33,907 nt of DNA. Origin: Cellulomonas sp. IC4_254 (GTDB lineage Bacteria > Actinomycetota > Actinomycetes > Actinomycetales > Cellulomonadaceae). The notes under the pieces were generated by a model. It saw nothing but the letters and a program-made list of their open reading frames with translations. It did no database searches and was not told the DNA's origin. The stretch covers positions 1 through 33,907 of the forward strand of contig NZ_JAANNB010000016.1 in assembly GCF_011603975.1 (NCBI RefSeq), given 5' to 3'. Made by a program: the position numbers and the translations under genes. Within the stretch, counting starts at the first letter, position 1; each line of letters opens with the position of its first letter. Shown here piece after piece: positions 10,596-19,174 of the stretch.

Positions 10596-12230
10596 TCAGA
10601 CCCGGAAGCCGCCCACCAGGCGCTGCAGGTCGGTCGACATCTCCGCCAGGGACGTCACCGCCCGCCGGGACTCCGCGGCTCCCTGGGTCGTGAGGTCCGC
10701 GGCGCCCGCGACCCCGGCGATGTTGCTCGCGATCTCACCGGAGCCGGTGGCCGCCTCGGCCACGCTCCGGTTCATCTCCGCGGTGGTCGCGGTCTGCTCC
10801 TCGACGGCGCTCGAGATCGACAGCTGGAAGTCGTTGATCTGCGCGATGATCCCGGCGACGTCGTCGATCGCGGTGACCGCGCCGGCCGTGTCCGCCTGGA
10901 TCGACTCGACGCGGCGCGCGATGTCCTCGGTCGCCCGGGCGGTCTCCTGCGCGAGCTCCTTGACCTCGCCCGCGACGACCGCGAACCCCTTGCCGGCCTC
11001 GCCCGCGCGCGCCGCCTCGATCGTCGCGTTGAGCGCGAGCAGGTTCGTCTGCTCCGCGATCGAGGTGATGAGCTTCACGACGTTGCCGATCTCCTTGCTC
11101 GACTCGCCCAGGCGGTCCATCGTGGCGGTCGTGGTGCCCACGGCGGAGACGCCCTTGCCGGCGACCTCGACCGCCCGCGACGCGCTCCGGGCGATCTCCT
11201 GGATGGAGGCGCCCATCTGCTCCGACCCCGCGGCGACGGTCTGGACGTTGCGCGACACCTGCTCCGCCGCGGCGGAGACCACGCCGGCCTGCGCCGCGGT
11301 CTCCTCGGCGGAGGCGGCGATCTGCCCGCTGCTCGCGGACATCTGCTCGGCGGCCGACGCCAGCGCCGTCGACGACCGGTCGATGGTGCCGATGACGCCG
11401 CGCAGCGTGCCGACGGCCGAGTCAAGGGCCGTGCCCATCCGGCCGACCTCGTCCCGGCTCGTGAGCCCGGCGGTCACGGTGAGGTCGCCCTGCTCGAGGG
11501 CCGCGGCGACGACCTGGACCCGCTGCAGCCCGCGCACGATCGACCGCGCCACCAGGGCGGCGAGCGCGAGGGCCAGCGCGGTCCCGACGACCAGCAGCCC
11601 GATGACCGTCGTGCGGCTGACGCGGTAGTCCGCGGCCGCCCGCTCGACGGCCGCGGCGGCGGCGGACTCCTCGCGCTCGACGAGCGCCGTCGCGCTCGCG
11701 GACATCGCGTCGATGATCGGCTGCGCGACGGCGTCGCGGACCTCGGCGAACCCGGCCGTGTCCCCGGCGCGGCTGGCGACGAGCAGCTGGTCGTCGCGCA
11801 CCCGCAGGTAGTCGGCGAGCGCGGCCTCGAAGGCGCCGAGCGCCGCCCGCGACTCGTCGTCGAGCGGCAGCGCGGCGTACGCGGCGATCGCGTCGTGGAG
11901 CTCGGCCTCGCTCGCCGCGATCTTGTCCTCGAACCGCGCCAGCACGGTGTCGTCGGTGGACAGCGCGTGGTTGGTGACGTCGAGCCGCATCTGGACCATG
12001 GCCCGGCGCAGGGTCGCGGCCTGCTGCAGCCCGACGACGTTCTCGGCGTACATCGCGGTGGTCGCGGCGTTCGTGGACCCGAGCGCGACGATGCCGACGA
12101 CGCCCACCAGGGCGCCCACGGCGGCGGCGAGCAGGACGGCGGCCAGGATCCGGGCGCGGACGCCGCGATCGGCGAGCCAGGACAGGACGGACGGGCGACG
12201 GGCGCCCGCGGTGACGGTGGTGGTGGTCAC
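10596..12230 (-). CDS. Methyl-accepting chemotaxis protein
   Basis: A 544-residue transmembrane chemoreceptor. A membrane segment at about 28-50 is followed by a periplasmic-side four-helix-bundle sensor (about 52-185). A second membrane segment (about 190-212), a HAMP linker and a cytoplasmic signalling domain follow. The signalling hairpin tip is canonical: [20 protein letters not shown] then [19 protein letters not shown], where it contacts CheA/CheW. There is no C-terminal CheR-tethering pentapeptide. Start GTG at 12230 follows a strong AGGAGGA ribosome site. No che or flagellar genes are in the window, so this is an orphan receptor. A DosR-like palindrome lies 81 bases upstream, which suggests control by redox or hypoxia. 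The ligand is unknown. Confidence 0.95.
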
Positions 12231-15238: not shown

Positions 15239-15272
15239 GGTACGGCACAGGCGCCGCCCGTGCGCGGGCGCC

Positions 15273-15581
15273 TCAGGGGCGGGCGGCGTCCTCGACCGCG
15301 CGGAGGACGCCGATCGCGTGCTGGAGGGAGTGCCAGGCCGGTGCGGCGGCTCCCGCCTCGACGAGCGCGCGCACCTCGGCGAGGTCGTCGCTCACCTGGC
15401 CGACCGTGAGGTCGGCGTCCCGGGCGGGACGCCGCGACAGGTCGAACGCCCGGTCGACCGGAAGGTGCCAGTAGTGGTCGCGGGCGATCAGGAGCTCGGT
15501 CCCGTGCTCCGCCTCGAAGGCGTCGAGGGCGAGACCGAGCGCCGCTCGGAGATCCGAGAGGCGGAGGATGGCGTCCGACAT
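15273..15581 (-). CDS. Hypothetical protein, 102 residues
   Basis: A 102-residue, mostly helical, acidic protein (MSDAILRLSDLRAALGLAL, then HYWHLPVDRAFDL, ending HSLQHAIGVLRAVEDAARP). I recognise no family. Start ATG at 15581 has no strong ribosome site. The stop overlaps the edge of an imperfect hairpin at 15249-15273 that may terminate it. The gene lies 30 bases after the stop of the displaced ligase 3' end, on the same strand. Before the insertion at 15872 it was therefore probably the gene directly downstream of the ligase and perhaps co-transcribed with it. It now lacks that upstream promoter. Confidence 0.65.
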   Translation of the reverse strand: MSDAILRLSDLRAALGLALDAFEAEHGTELLIARDHYWHLPVDRAFDLSRRPARDADLTVGQVSDDLAEVRALVEAGAAAPAWHSLQHAIGVLRAVEDAARP

Positions 15582-15611
15582 GTCACGAGCGTCGCAGACT
15601 CGTGGAGGGTC

Positions 15612-15871
15612 TCAGTGTGCCAGCGCCCGCACCGTGTCGATCGTGTCCGCCGCCGCCGCGGTCTTGTCGTCGCGGTACCGGAGCACCCGCGCGAACCGCA
15701 GTGCCAGCCCGCCGGGGTACCGGGTCGACCGCTGCAGCCCGTCGAACGCGATTTCCACGACCTGCTCCGGCCGCAGCGTGACGTTCCAGCCGTCGTCGGC
15801 GACCTCCAGCTCCCGGAACCGCGCGGTCTGCCAGGCGAGCATCTCGTCCGTCATGTCCTTGAACGTCTTGC
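15612..15871 (-). pseudogene. Displaced native 3' end of the ATP-dependent DNA ligase gene
   Basis: About 85 residues from [20 protein letters not shown] to the stop match the C-terminus of the intact ligase at 17549-19129. By eye the two agree at roughly four of five residues, with identical runs such as [12 protein letters not shown] and [15 protein letters not shown]. The stretch covers the OB-fold end with ligase motif VI ([13 protein letters not shown]). The DNA is high-GC and host-like, whereas the ligase's present 3' end is not. Similarity stops abruptly at 15871/15872, inside the Gly codon before KTFK. It is thus the original ligase 3' end, cut off by the insertion. A short product from an internal ATG is conceivable but has no evident promoter. 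Confidence 0.85.
15858..15871. repeat. Left junction repeat (attachment-like)
   Basis: CTTGAACGTCTTGC, the last ligase-homologous bases on the left, aligns with 17792-17805 at 11 of 14 positions. It encodes Lys-Thr-Phe-Lys on the minus strand. It marks the left edge of the inserted segment. Confidence 0.5.
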
Positions 15872-15955
15872 GCGACACGAGTGACGAACGACTGCGGCCG
15901 CAGGGCAGCGCACGCTAGATTGGGCCCGCAGCGGCCAACGGCATTGGAGTCCAGG

Positions 15956-17515
15956 GTGTCCTCACAGACCTTCCTTGAGAGTTGTGGATTCGTAGGCGAC
16001 CCTTTCGCGTCGACCAACTCCGAGAACGAGGAGAGCCTCGCGGATTATTTCGTGCCACCGCCTTACTTTGAGAGTGTCCTCGGGTCGCCCAAGTCGCCGA
16101 AATCGACCATCGTGTTTGCTCCTCGCGGCAGTGGAAAGACGGCGCAGCGCAGGATGATCGAGATCGCCTCGGGGAAAGGTGCCGACTTCGCATGTGTGAC
16201 CTACACGAACTTTGCTGAGATTGATCCGCTTTCCGCGACCCTTTCGGATCACCAAAGGGCCTTATGTCGCTTGCTGACGGTGGCCGCCCTCAGTCACATC
16301 GCCGACGACCCTTCGCGTGCCGGTGCGCTAAGCGAGCACAATAAGCAAGTGGTCAAGTATGCCGCGAGTGCTCTGCTCAGCGACCTCAACCAGCAAGAGC
16401 TAGAAATTGCCATCTCGTCGGTCAAGTCGCTGGGAGACAAGGCGGCAGACACATGGCGCAAGTATGGCGGCTTTGTTGCTGTCGGCATCGCAGCAATCAT
16501 GAAGAAGTTCGGCTTCGATGGGGTTAACCTGCCCGCCGAGTTGTCCGAGACCGCGCGCGAGTCGGCCGCCCTGGCGTACCTCTTTCCAAAACTGCTGGAG
16601 GTTTTCAGCGCACTCGGGTTCCACGCGGTCTATATCCTGGTGGACAAACTCGACGAGACGAGCAAGACTGCAAACAGCGCTGAGCGAGCGTTTGAGTTGA
16701 TTAGTCCGCTTCTCTTGGACCTCACGACCGTCGAGCAGCCTGGTGTCGCCTTCAAGTTCTTTCTTTGGGATCTTCTCGAATCGCCCTTTGTGGAGAATGG
16801 CGGACGTGGCGACCGACTCGGTGTCGCGAACCTGCATTGGACCGTGCCTGAGTTGATGGAGATGCTCAGCCGTCGCGTGGCCGCGTTTTCCGACAATCGC
16901 ATAACGAGTTTCAACCAGTTGGTCGAAGCCGATTGCGATCTTGACGTGCATCGACTGCTGGCCTATCTCAGTCCGAATTCGCCACGCGACATGATCCGAA
17001 TGTGCGAGAAGATCGTTGCCGAACATACGCGACAGCCAGATTACCCCATCCTGATTTCTACGCGCACGGTTCTCAAAGGGATCCACGAGTTCGCAAAGAT
17101 CCGCAGCCAGGAACTGTTTGGCCGGTTCATGAAGGACTTGACGAGGCTCCCGCAGCCCTCATTTACAAATACGCGTCTCGCTAGCGATGTGTTCAAGATT
17201 TCGACCACTGCGGTGCGGAACAAGATTGTCAGCTGGATTGAGGCGGGAGCGGTTGAGAAAATCGGCGAAGAGAGTCGCGGCGCCAAGCCACTTCACAAGT
17301 ATGCATTCAGGGACCCGCGGACGGCAGTTGCAACGGCTCCGCTAACTGGCCTAACAAGGCTGCTCGAATCTGAGATCTTCATCTGCCCGTCGTGTTCAAC
17401 CATGCTGATTACATCGACGCCGTCTGCGCCTTGTAAGGAGTGTGGCGCGGAAGCGCGTGAGGGCGAGGTTAGAAGCCTGCTTCGGGTTTGCGCGAGGTCA
17501 TCGACAGGTGATTGA
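15956..17515 (+). CDS. P-loop ATPase with winged-helix-like and zinc-ribbon C-terminus
   Basis: A 519-residue soluble protein. Near the N-terminus are DPFASTNSENEE and YFVPPPYFE, then Walker A APRGSGKT at 55-62. Walker B VYILVDKLDE is at about 225-234, and a short hydrophobic stretch (GGFVAVGIAAIM) lies near 171-182. A winged-helix-like segment (ASDVFKISTTAVRNKIVSWI) lies near 408-427, and a zinc ribbon has Cys at 477, 480, 493 and 496. From memory it resembles proteins annotated as Sll1717-family P-loop ATPases, whose function is not established; a role in phage defence or DNA transactions is only a guess. Start GTG at 15956 is chosen for GGAG seven bases upstream and family-like sequence from residue 10. 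TAGATT at 15916-15921 is a possible -10. Codon use is clearly foreign. The gene is convergent with the ligase. Confidence 0.85.
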   Translation: MSSQTFLESCGFVGDPFASTNSENEESLADYFVPPPYFESVLGSPKSPKSTIVFAPRGSGKTAQRRMIEIASGKGADFACVTYTNFAEIDPLSATLSDHQRALCRLLTVAALSHIADDPSRAGALSEHNKQVVKYAASALLSDLNQQELEIAISSVKSLGDKAADTWRKYGGFVAVGIAAIMKKFGFDGVNLPAELSETARESAALAYLFPKLLEVFSALGFHAVYILVDKLDETSKTANSAERAFELISPLLLDLTTVEQPGVAFKFFLWDLLESPFVENGGRGDRLGVANLHWTVPELMEMLSRRVAAFSDNRITSFNQLVEADCDLDVHRLLAYLSPNSPRDMIRMCEKIVAEHTRQPDYPILISTRTVLKGIHEFAKIRSQELFGRFMKDLTRLPQPSFTNTRLASDVFKISTTAVRNKIVSWIEAGAVEKIGEESRGAKPLHKYAFRDPRTAVATAPLTGLTRLLESEIFICPSCSTMLITSTPSAPCKECGAEAREGEVRSLLRVCARSSTGD

Positions 17516-17530
17516 GCCGGCCGCGGCTCA
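17513..17530. terminator. Hairpin between converging ATPase and ligase genes
   Basis: TGAGCCG pairs with CGGCTCA around GCCG. The left arm starts in the ATPase stop codon, and the ligase stop is 18 bases beyond the right arm. It is a short but perfect stem that could terminate both genes. Confidence 0.5.
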
Positions 17531-17548
17531 CGTCGTATGGATCAGGTT

Positions 17549-19129
17549 CTAGAGCATGCTTTGCAGCGTTTCGATCGTGTCGGCCTCGATGGCTGCCTTG
17601 TCTTGACGGTATCGGAGTACACGGGCGAACCGAAGGGCGATACCACCCGGATAGCGGGATGAACGCTGAACTCCGTCGAAGGCAATCTCGACCACCTGCT
17701 CGGGGCGAAGTGTGACAGTCCATCCGTCATCGTCCACGGCTAGCTCTCGAAAACGCGCGGTTTGCCAGGCGAGCATCTTGTCGCTCATCCCTTTGAAGGT
17801 TTTGCCAACCATCACCCAGCCGATTCCGTCGCTGTCCTGCTTCGTCTCGCCCAGCATGACGAAGCCGCCTTCGCCGTCACGCGCGCCCAGGTGGATGTTC
17901 GACAGCGAGCCGACCCGGCGGCCGGAGCCGCGCTCGACGGCCAGCACCACCAGGTCGAGCGTGTGCCGCGGCTTGACCTTGACCCAGGCGCCGCCGCGCC
18001 GGCCGGCCTCGTAGGGCGCAGCGGCGTCCTTGACGATGACGCCCTCCTGGCCGGCGGCGACCCAGCCGGTGAACGCCTCCTGCGCGACCTGCGGGTCGGC
18101 GGTGACGACCCGCTCGACGGCGTGGTCCGGGGCGATCGCGTCGAGGACGGCGAGCCGCTCGGTGAGCGGGGCGTCGAGCAGGTCCGCGCCGTCGCGGTGC
18201 AGCACGTCGAAGAAGAACGGCCGCAGCGCGGTCGTGGCGGCGAGCTCGGCGTCCCGGGTGGCGCTGCGGGCGGCGGTCTCCTGGAACGGGCGCGGGCGGC
18301 CGGCGTCGTCCAGGGTCAGCGCCTCGCCGTCGAGCACCACCGAGCGCACGGGCAGGGCGCGGACGGCCTCGACCACCTCCGGCACGCGCGCCGTGATGTC
18401 GTCGAGGCTGCGGGTGTAGACCCGGACGTCGTCGCCGTCGCGGTGCACCTGGATCCGGATGCCGTCGAGCTTGGCGTCCACGACGACCGCGCGGCCGTCG
18501 AACCCCGCGACCGCGGCGGGGACGTCCGGCGCGGAGGCGGCGAGCATCGGCCGGACCGGGCGGCCGACGGTGAGCCCGAAGGCGTCCAGCGCCGCCCGCG
18601 CCGCCTCCGGGTCGGTCGCCGCGAGCGCCGCCTCGGCGACCGGCTCGCTGCCACCGGCCAGCATCGCCGCGCGCCGGACGGCCGCGACCGGCACGCCCGC
18701 GGCCTCGGCGACGGCGTCGAGCAGCAGGGCGTCGAGCGCGCCCTGCCGGACCTCGCCGGAGACGAGCCCGGCGAGGAACCGCTGCTCCTCGGCGGTGGCG
18801 GCGCCGAACAGCTCCGCCGCCAGCGCCGCGCGGGCGCCCGCGGACCCCGGCCCGGACAGCCCGGTCATCCGCTCGAAGGTGGCGTCGACGGCGCGCACGT
18901 CGAGGGACGGCTCGGCCGCGGGCTGCGGCAGGTCGCGCAGGGACCGCCAGCCGAGGCCGGTGCGCCGCTGCCGGAGCTCGCCCGCGAGGTAGCGCGCGAC
19001 GACGGGCACCTCGTCGGGGCCGGTCCGGCGCAGCAGGTCGACGAGCAGGGCGCGCTTGGCCAGGCGCGAGCGGGTCGCGGCCAGGCCCGCGCTGGTGGCG
19101 GCGACGTCGGCGAGCAGCACGTCCGTCAT
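17549..19129 (-). CDS. ATP-dependent DNA ligase (LigB-like), hybrid 3' end
   Basis: A 526-residue ATP-dependent DNA ligase that seals nicks. It has an N-terminal helical DNA-binding domain (MTDVLLADVA onward). The nucleotidyltransferase domain has the adenylated Lys in DAKLDG (motif I), FFFDVLH, EGVIVKD and WVKVKP (motifs III-V). The C-terminal OB fold ends in motif [13 protein letters not shown]. Length and layout match mycobacterial LigB. Start ATG at 19129 matches the family start; an in-frame GTG at 19150 also exists. From about 17549 to 17820 codon use is foreign and A/T-richer, while the rest is host-like. The protein is therefore a chimera whose last ~85 residues came with the ATPase insert; the reading frame is perfectly restored. 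It lies 45 bases after the antiporter gene and is probably co-transcribed with it. It may partner the ligase-less LigD at 12405. Confidence 0.95.
   Translation of the reverse strand: MTDVLLADVAATSAGLAATRSRLAKRALLVDLLRRTGPDEVPVVARYLAGELRQRRTGLGWRSLRDLPQPAAEPSLDVRAVDATFERMTGLSGPGSAGARAALAAELFGAATAEEQRFLAGLVSGEVRQGALDALLLDAVAEAAGVPVAAVRRAAMLAGGSEPVAEAALAATDPEAARAALDAFGLTVGRPVRPMLAASAPDVPAAVAGFDGRAVVVDAKLDGIRIQVHRDGDDVRVYTRSLDDITARVPEVVEAVRALPVRSVVLDGEALTLDDAGRPRPFQETAARSATRDAELAATTALRPFFFDVLHRDGADLLDAPLTERLAVLDAIAPDHAVERVVTADPQVAQEAFTGWVAAGQEGVIVKDAAAPYEAGRRGGAWVKVKPRHTLDLVVLAVERGSGRRVGSLSNIHLGARDGEGGFVMLGETKQDSDGIGWVMVGKTFKGMSDKMLAWQTARFRELAVDDDGWTVTLRPEQVVEIAFDGVQRSSRYPGGIALRFARVLRYRQDKAAIEADTIETLQSML
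17792..17805. repeat. Right junction repeat (attachment-like)
   Basis: TTTGAAGGTTTTGC is the counterpart of 15858-15871, matching at 11 of 14 positions. It encodes the Lys-Thr-Phe-Lys codons at which ligase codon use switches from foreign to host. Confidence 0.5.
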
Positions 19130-19174
19130 CCTGCCGCCGACCTCCGACACCCGCCCGCCGACCGGCGCACCGTG

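Follow-up and report, generated by a model that had tools for sequence, protein, structure and literature searches.

A small cassette with a putative anti-phage ATPase inserted in an actinobacterial DNA ligase gene, and its probable link to ligase-targeting serine integrases

Introduction

The ATP-dependent DNA ligase gene of Cellulomonas sp. IC4_254 carries a 1,979-bp element (15870-17848) that has been inserted precisely, that gives the gene a new 3′ end, and that has displaced the original host 3′ end downstream as an orphan. Coordinates are those of the whole stretch of 33,907 nucleotides analyzed here, which we call the window. Besides the ligase end, the only gene recognized in the element encodes a P-loop ATPase of 519 aa (15956-17515, plus strand). 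It is probable, in our judgment, that the element is a defense cassette with no recombinase of its own, inserted site-specifically at a core AAGAC over the codons Gly-Lys-Thr of the ligase, and that such cassettes are moved in trans by serine integrases that target the ligase.

A precise insertion with a replaced gene end

The C-terminus of the ligase is present twice on the minus strand. One copy (17549-17803, KTFKGM... to the stop) is in frame with the intact gene, and the other, the orphan (15612-15869, with the core AAGACGTTCAAGG at its start), lies at a spacing of 1,934; the two are 74% identical over 243 nt. The host part of the ligase gene (codons 1-434, ending ..GGFVMLG; 17849-19150, minus strand; 91.5% identical to the near relative G015) has a GC content of 99.1% at third codon positions (GC3). 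This value is only 69.0% in the linker described below taken together with the new C-terminus and 68.1% in the ATPase gene, and the orphan stands at 95.3%. The GC content of the whole element is 58.1%, vs. 75.2% in the remainder of the window. Ligase C-termini of the near relatives G015, G009, and G028 are 90-93% identical to the orphan and 73% identical to the in-frame copy. Among the loci fetched, the ligase of the nearest relative has a C-terminus 93.8% identical to the orphan, and in a tree of ligase ends the orphan groups with G035, G471, G009, and G028. A first-pass annotation, made from the window by itself, had described the C-terminus as doubled, with a foreign in-frame copy and a host-like orphan, and this description holds: the orphan is nearest to ligases of its own genus, and the close relatives compared have uninterrupted genes.

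Host sequence ends at 17849 (..ATGCTGGGC, ..GGC) and resumes at 15869 (AAGACG.., AAGACGTTCAAGG). When these two flanks are joined, they align across the joint with the empty ligases of G015, G009, and G028 at 91.5%, 91.1%, and 91.9% identity, and the identity, taken in 60-bp bins, is steady over the joint. The alignment to G015 has no gaps, and the gaps nearest to the joint are 458 bp (G009) and 763 bp (G028) away, all of them upstream. This empty-site comparison bears out the earlier proposal of an element that supplies a new 3′ end to the ligase gene into which it integrates. The edges originally given, 15872-17805, belong to a real element but have to be corrected, with the right edge 43 bp further out, because the foreign stretch includes a 15-codon linker (17804-17848) that near relatives lack. 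The orphan had been called cut off at its 5′ edge; there is indeed a break, and that edge is the insertion point itself.

The linker (ETKQDSDGIGWVMVG, minus strand) constitutes the right arm of the element and is absent from the compared empty ligases: where relatives read GGFVMLGKTFKGM, the window reads GGFVMLGETKQDSDGIGWVMVGKTFKGM, with 15 residues added in frame. Despite the linker, the ligase frame (17549-19150, minus strand) matches PRK03180 (NF002868) at 766.5 bits (cut-off 641) over residues 11-532. In the mechanism that we propose, the cassette would enter by site-specific recombination at the core AAGAC, in the C-terminal part of the ligase, and what the sequence shows is that the right arm is read through as the 15-residue linker into the ligase 3′ end that the cassette carries, so that the full-length ligase frame is kept. 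The left arm (15870-15895, minus strand; ..cgttcgtcactcgtgtcgcgc adjoining the core) resembles the left arms of cassettes with other cargo.

The ligase copy carried by the element has a second, inner core of its own. It reads AAAAC in the window (17803) and in the loci L035, L036, and L101, whereas the empty sites have AAGAC, and such an inner core might prevent re-insertion at the inner site. However, L139, L074, and further copies in L101 retain AAGAC.

Recurrence in other genomes

The same architecture recurs in other actinobacteria. Using a 91-residue ligase end as query (E ≤ 1e-10), we searched order, family, and class samples that overlap and that each include the window's own genome. 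More than one copy of the ligase end was present in 5 of 142 matched genomes in the order sample (396 searched), in 9 of 165 in the family sample (221 searched), and in 3 of 199 in the class sample (394 searched). An intact ligase with extra 3′ fragments occurs in 12 genomes (G000, which is the window's own, G021, G051, G296, G362, G456, G479, G480, G500, G517, G581, and G709), spanning at least three families and two orders. The first-pass annotation had proposed looking elsewhere for ligases with a second 3′ fragment and different cargo, and the 11 further genomes are such cases. One of them, Cellulomonas rhizosphaerae (G456), belongs to the genus of the window, and in another, Intrasporangium oryzae NRRL B-24470 (G362), the ligase copies are on two contigs. 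The inserted cassette of the window is not a single case but belongs to a recurrent family.

Orphan ends mostly begin at common codons, KTFKGM or a decayed form of it, and cassettes measure ~0.5-2.5 kb from the ligase core to the first orphan. A search of genome contigs for the orphan-junction pattern returned three contigs, all among the known carriers. We regard a precise, recurrent insertion with a replaced gene end as solid.

Cassettes can also be found in tandem. G517 (locus L101, 2203-3540) has a tandem array in which the left end of a cassette runs directly into AAGAC and the right arm of another. This junction suggests entry of a cassette into the ligase-side junction of an earlier one.

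Serine integrases at the same core

A 13th case is the one in which the ligase is split by a prophage, in Promicromonospora kroppenstedtii DSM 19349 (G550). The prophage encodes a large serine integrase (PHROG 'integrase', 164 bits). Genes for portal, major head, tape-measure, and tail proteins share its scaffold, and the phage attachment site (attP) beside the integrase reads TTTCGTGACTCCGTCCCC(C)GC-AAGAC-CTTCCCGGCAACGGAGTTACGAGG. The N part of the ligase continues as ..GGC-AAGAC-CTTCCCGGCAACGGAGTTACGAGG-(12 nt)-ATG of the integrase and then runs into a scaffold N gap, and the other phage arm precedes the C part. The assembly thus contains attP and both junction sites (attL, attR) of a ligase-targeting integrase, spread over three scaffolds. 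The prophage truncates the ligase, and the frame then reads TFPATELRGIVPA-stop.

In I. oryzae, the orphan end adjoins a serine recombinase of up to 455 aa, with possible ATG starts ~20 and ~32 bp from the core. This protein has a Resolvase domain (110 bits) and weak XisF, CcrC, and CcrB matches (34 bits vs. cut-offs of 900 for CcrB/CcrC), and the P. kroppenstedtii integrase is 56% identical to it over 436 residues. A serine integrase is the likely inserting agent; the link rests on the P. kroppenstedtii and I. oryzae junctions, because the symmetry tests described below failed. Integrases from phages or other elements would act in trans on the cassettes, and we infer that the cassettes are mobilized in this way.

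Two further observations concern these elements. One scaffold of P. kroppenstedtii (C14; L141, L143) holds six attP copies, mostly followed by the integrase start, with N gaps nearby and variants in poly-C length, as would result from scaffolding several phage forms, or a collapsed mixture, together. At the end of an I. oryzae contig (C31; L073, ~11090-11230), an inverted repeat, ttgcatcactgaggtgtgaacaca .. tgtgttcacacctcagtgatacaag, follows the recombinase and a small open reading frame.

In a phage collection, relatives of the P. kroppenstedtii integrase are ~26-29% identical among the best 30 of 385 records. IMG/VR gave no confirmed match to either integrase and no match to the two attP patterns. 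The ligase C-terminus has no match in 50,697 phage records, and in IMG/VR it matches one truncated tail (L113, 1070-1219, the last 50 residues) that lacks the usual core. In a plasmid collection, 89 records match the ligase end; among the 20 listed, most are annotated ligases or unannotated, and the two records examined were one full ligase and one isolated decayed ligase end. A search for the I. oryzae recombinase (E ≤ 1e-40) had no hits in 297 order genomes, a sample without I. oryzae and P. kroppenstedtii that says little.

Arm motifs

We compared the left arms at 16 orphan junctions with a recognizable core, 10 of which were also used in the comparison with right arms. Three decayed ligase fragments (the downstream one of G296, the third of G500, and the second of G517) were left out of this count, as their core could not be placed. 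The motif GTNA starts 15-18 nt before the core at 13 of the 16 junctions, the G550 prophage included (background 2.9%, binomial 5e-18); it is lacking at both junctions of G517 and at the single one of G296.

On the right side, GTNA stands at a spacing of 16 nt in the four cassettes that have the motif but no integrase, and at 20 nt in the two integrase-bearing elements. For a Listeria phage integrase, zinc-domain motifs are reported to lie 5 bp nearer the center in the bacterial attachment site (attB) than in attP (PMC3783163). Taking the 16 vs. 20 nt spacing together with this 5-bp shift, the right arm of the cassettes may be attB-like, which could explain stacking at the ligase-proximal junction. 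If the ligase-side junction remains attB-like in this way, new cassettes would stack beside the ligase, and older ligase ends would be pushed downstream as orphans.

Cargo

The ATPase of the window matches the NCBIfam model NF053860 for the DS41_1 anti-phage protein at 445.8 bits (cut-off 370) over residues 36-479 of a frame of 544 aa. It also matches the ATPase_Sll1717 subfamily (119 bits, cut-off 75) and the Pfam ORC-CDC6-like family (33.1 bits, cut-off 27), and it has a Walker A motif (APRGSGKT) and two CxxC pairs. The start is likely the GTG at 15956, though the open frame extends back to 15881. The ATPase may act as a stand-alone anti-phage defense. Among 248 order genomes sampled, the ATPase is present in one, the window's own, which is in line with acquisition from outside.

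The cassette cargo matches a defense family in 7 of the 12 carriers. Besides DS41_1 in the window, these matches are HEC-04 in G296 (602.8 bits), a type II methyltransferase (698 bits) next to a weakly matched putative restriction enzyme (E 0.008) in G362, PDC-S32 (298.8 bits) with AbiJ_NTD4 in G480, PDC-M55C in G581 (87.8 bits) and, in the stretch of the array that precedes the oldest orphan, in G517 (139.6 bits), and HEC-01A/B in G709 (156 and 51 bits). Finding different defense genes at one spot in related bacteria suggests a shared docking site.

Adjoining the orphan, outside the element, is a gene of 102 aa (15273-15581, minus strand). The first-pass annotation had expected relatives without the ATPase to have an uninterrupted ligase followed 30 bases later by this gene. 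The ligases of G015, G009, and G028 are uninterrupted, but no homolog of the 102-aa gene was found behind them in the 14 kb fetched. The block 15241-15618 is missing in these three relatives, with ~30, 60, and 100 bp, respectively, between the ligase match and the next conserved block. In G456 and G479, the one gene found between the ligase and the orphan is a homolog, and a further homolog follows the ligase of G017. Not having been found behind the ligase of the three nearest relatives, the 102-aa gene may be the cargo of an older event, that is, of a cassette whose own orphan has vanished.

Weighing the evidence

Several results weigh against a recombinase-less cassette that is moved in trans by serine integrases. 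The right arm of the window lacks GTNA, although six of the seven ligase-side right arms have it, starting 15-21 nt away; and the linker of the window starts with GAGAC, so that its first core base is G and not the A of AAGAC at the compared empty sites. The right-side motif also occurs in 68 of 71 distinct empty or linker-less sites (the left-side motif in 0 of 71), and GTNA was picked by eye and post hoc, which makes it supporting evidence only. Two position-matrix tests for a dyad between left and right arms were not significant: with right arms in fixed or one-sided register, 2,813 of 5,000 shuffles reached the observed sum, and in the second test 322 of 5,000 did, with the best blocks mostly at unexpected offsets. 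Half of the carriers (6 of 12) have no linker in the intact ligase, and the C-terminus of the window falls outside the clade of linker-type ends described below, on a long branch grouped weakly (87/69) with family f1.

Five of the 12 carriers have cargo with no convincing match to a defense family: 147 aa in G021; 246 and 235 aa in G051, where PD-T7-3 matches unconvincingly (E 0.0014 over 35 residues); 99 aa in G456 and G479, homologous to the 102-aa gene of the window (the G456 copy was scanned); and 80 aa in G500 (PADLOC scan only). As for the enzyme, the elements of G550 and G362 are each distributed over more than one contig or scaffold, and the window genome has no PF07508 match and no match to a recombinase of the I. 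oryzae type (E ≤ 1e-5). The absence of PF07508 alone is weak, because this model also missed the ligase-adjoining recombinase of I. oryzae, a gap that the second search covers. The PF07508 search took in G550 and every carrier but G709, and five of these 12 genomes have a match somewhere. An integrase like that of G550 (E ≤ 1e-25) is found in 2 of 220 family genomes, G550 itself and one at 35% identity. Since cassettes outnumber the integrase, the helper would have to be rare or transient, one that comes and goes.

The lineages of the ligase ends weigh in both directions, the clade of linker-type ends for the cassette reading and the linkerless loci for a first alternative. A linker of 15-16 residues is found at a common place in six of the 12 intact ligases (the window, G021, G051, G362, G517, and G709). 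A tree of 90 distinct ligase ends unites six of the seven linker-type ends in one clade (support 99/95) that spans families f1, f17, and f45, the last in another order. Outside the wider clade containing the linker-type ends, among other ligase ends, are 12 of the 13 orphans; the exception, the orphan of G500, forms a pair with the intact end of the same genome directly beside that wider clade. In three carriers whose intact ligase has no linker, the intact and orphan ends are mutually nearest (G296, 99.0%, downstream fragment; G480, 95.8%; G500, 94.4%), and gene conversion from the orphan may have removed the linker there. G456 is mixed: its orphan goes with the same lineage (G031) as the N part, and its intact end with a different one (G002). 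Recombination between ligase ends thus does seem to take place. G479 and G581 fit neither of these two linkerless patterns.

One could then suppose that a single ancient insertion made the array of ligase, cassette, and orphan, and that homologous recombination between ligase copies, by way of transformation or conjugation, has spread and changed it ever since, with no site-specific recombinase. The mutually closest ends, the mixed lineage of G456, and the negative outcome of the two recombinase searches in the window genome all go in this direction. Nevertheless, we find this account unlikely. It predicts donor tracts, and the flanks in the window are host-like right up to the core. Moreover, the same core and left arm are found with unrelated cargo in unrelated hosts, and that core is also the one used by a prophage and a recombinase gene.

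It is also improbable that the window element is what remains of a larger element with an integrase, or of a prophage, that inserted at the ligase and was then reduced in place to a defense gene and two ends. Elements with an integrase do exist at the same core, and in I. oryzae the recombinase on one contig and the restriction-modification genes by the linker ligase on another are probably parts of one element. But no ligase 3′ end lies between the phage arm and the integrase at the G550 junction, and that element is therefore not a direct parent. Deletions of a like kind would have had to occur in at least 11 carriers, and a linker clade that extends across families with different cargo fits better with movement of small units.

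Finally, an assembly or annotation artifact or a plain tandem duplication of the ligase end can be dismissed almost entirely: the assembly is a draft of 407 contigs, and G362 and G550 have the splits noted above, with N gaps, but the window is inside one contig, recurrence in the single-contig genomes G021, G296, G479, and G480 rules out chance or an assembly effect, and the two C-termini differ by 26% and in origin, which rules out duplication.

Insertion by ligase-targeting serine integrases acting on recombinase-less cassettes could be part of a larger scheme, which we put forward tentatively, as a possibility that is rather less than even. The ligase may be an integron-like docking platform, used by minimal cassettes (an attP-type left arm, a defense gene or pair, and a ligase end with an in-frame right arm that mimics the right half of attB) by means of the recombinase of temperate phages. 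Phages would use the same attB and break the ligase; cassettes would keep the frame and leave an attB-like site for the next one. If so, defense genes would be spread by the phages' own enzyme, and cassettes may compete with phages for the site.

There are practical consequences. In several actinobacterial families, the interior of a protein-coding gene would serve as a chromosomal docking site for anti-phage genes. Orphan ligase ends can be searched for mechanically, which gives a simple route to new defense genes, and the five carriers whose cargo has no convincing family match are a candidate source of them. The junctions yield new serine integrases with a defined candidate attB, and they make it testable whether defense genes travel as small recombinase-less units on a phage integrase.

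Comparison with known systems

Judging by titles and the beginnings of abstracts, we found no description of a ligase attB or of such cassettes in the open-license literature. In the main text of one article (PMC10083194), the word 'ligase' occurs four times, and at least two of these passages concern T4 ligase.

Among actinophages, prophages of the phiC31/Bxb1 type have the features seen in the G550 prophage: an integrase beside attP, a short core, and attL and attR. The difference is in the ligase attB, and in that the prophage truncates the ligase, whereas cassettes rebuild it. Of what is expected from an element of a large serine integrase, the window element has one attB core and an empty site that can be reconstituted, and it has no integrase of its own; the arm motif is present on its left side and absent on its right. 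Phage satellites such as phage-inducible chromosomal islands (PICI), the PICI-like element (PLE) of V. cholerae, and P4 are another comparison. Like PLE (PMC6002521), a satellite with a serine recombinase, the cassettes have anti-phage cargo, and they would share with it the reliance on a recombination function encoded by a phage; unlike satellites, the window cassette has no integrase, replication, or packaging gene, and with a single cargo gene it is far smaller.

Integron gene cassettes are also small units stacked at one site with the newest next to the platform, an order that the ligase cassettes would share; here an ordinary protein-coding gene serves as the platform, and each insertion replaces its end. 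With e14-type insertions in icd, too, a protein-coding gene receives a new 3′ end and the old one stays behind as a fragment, but e14 is a prophage that encodes a tyrosine integrase of its own. Compared with cis-mobilizable elements (CIME), the window element has no recombination or conjugation gene and has its junctions at a shared core, with an atypical right arm. For an integrative and conjugative or mobilizable parent of the cassettes, we saw a single candidate, the split element of I. oryzae.

Staphylococcal cassette chromosome (SCC) elements without a recombinase exist. With SCC elements and the CcrB-type ssrA islands of Dehalococcoides (PMC3146451), the likenesses are a single site near the 3′ end of a conserved gene, a gene end that is preserved or regenerated, islands in tandem, and a serine recombinase in the integrase-bearing members. 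The window genome has no ccr-type recombinase detectable with PF07508 or with the G362 recombinase, the ccr models themselves not having been searched genome-wide. The differences are that the target here is the ATP-dependent ligase gene instead of rlmH or ssrA, and that the cassettes are very small and carry ~300 bp of the target gene including an in-frame linker. We therefore class the window element as SCC- or CIME-like, with a new target gene and as an unusually small, defense-rich unit.

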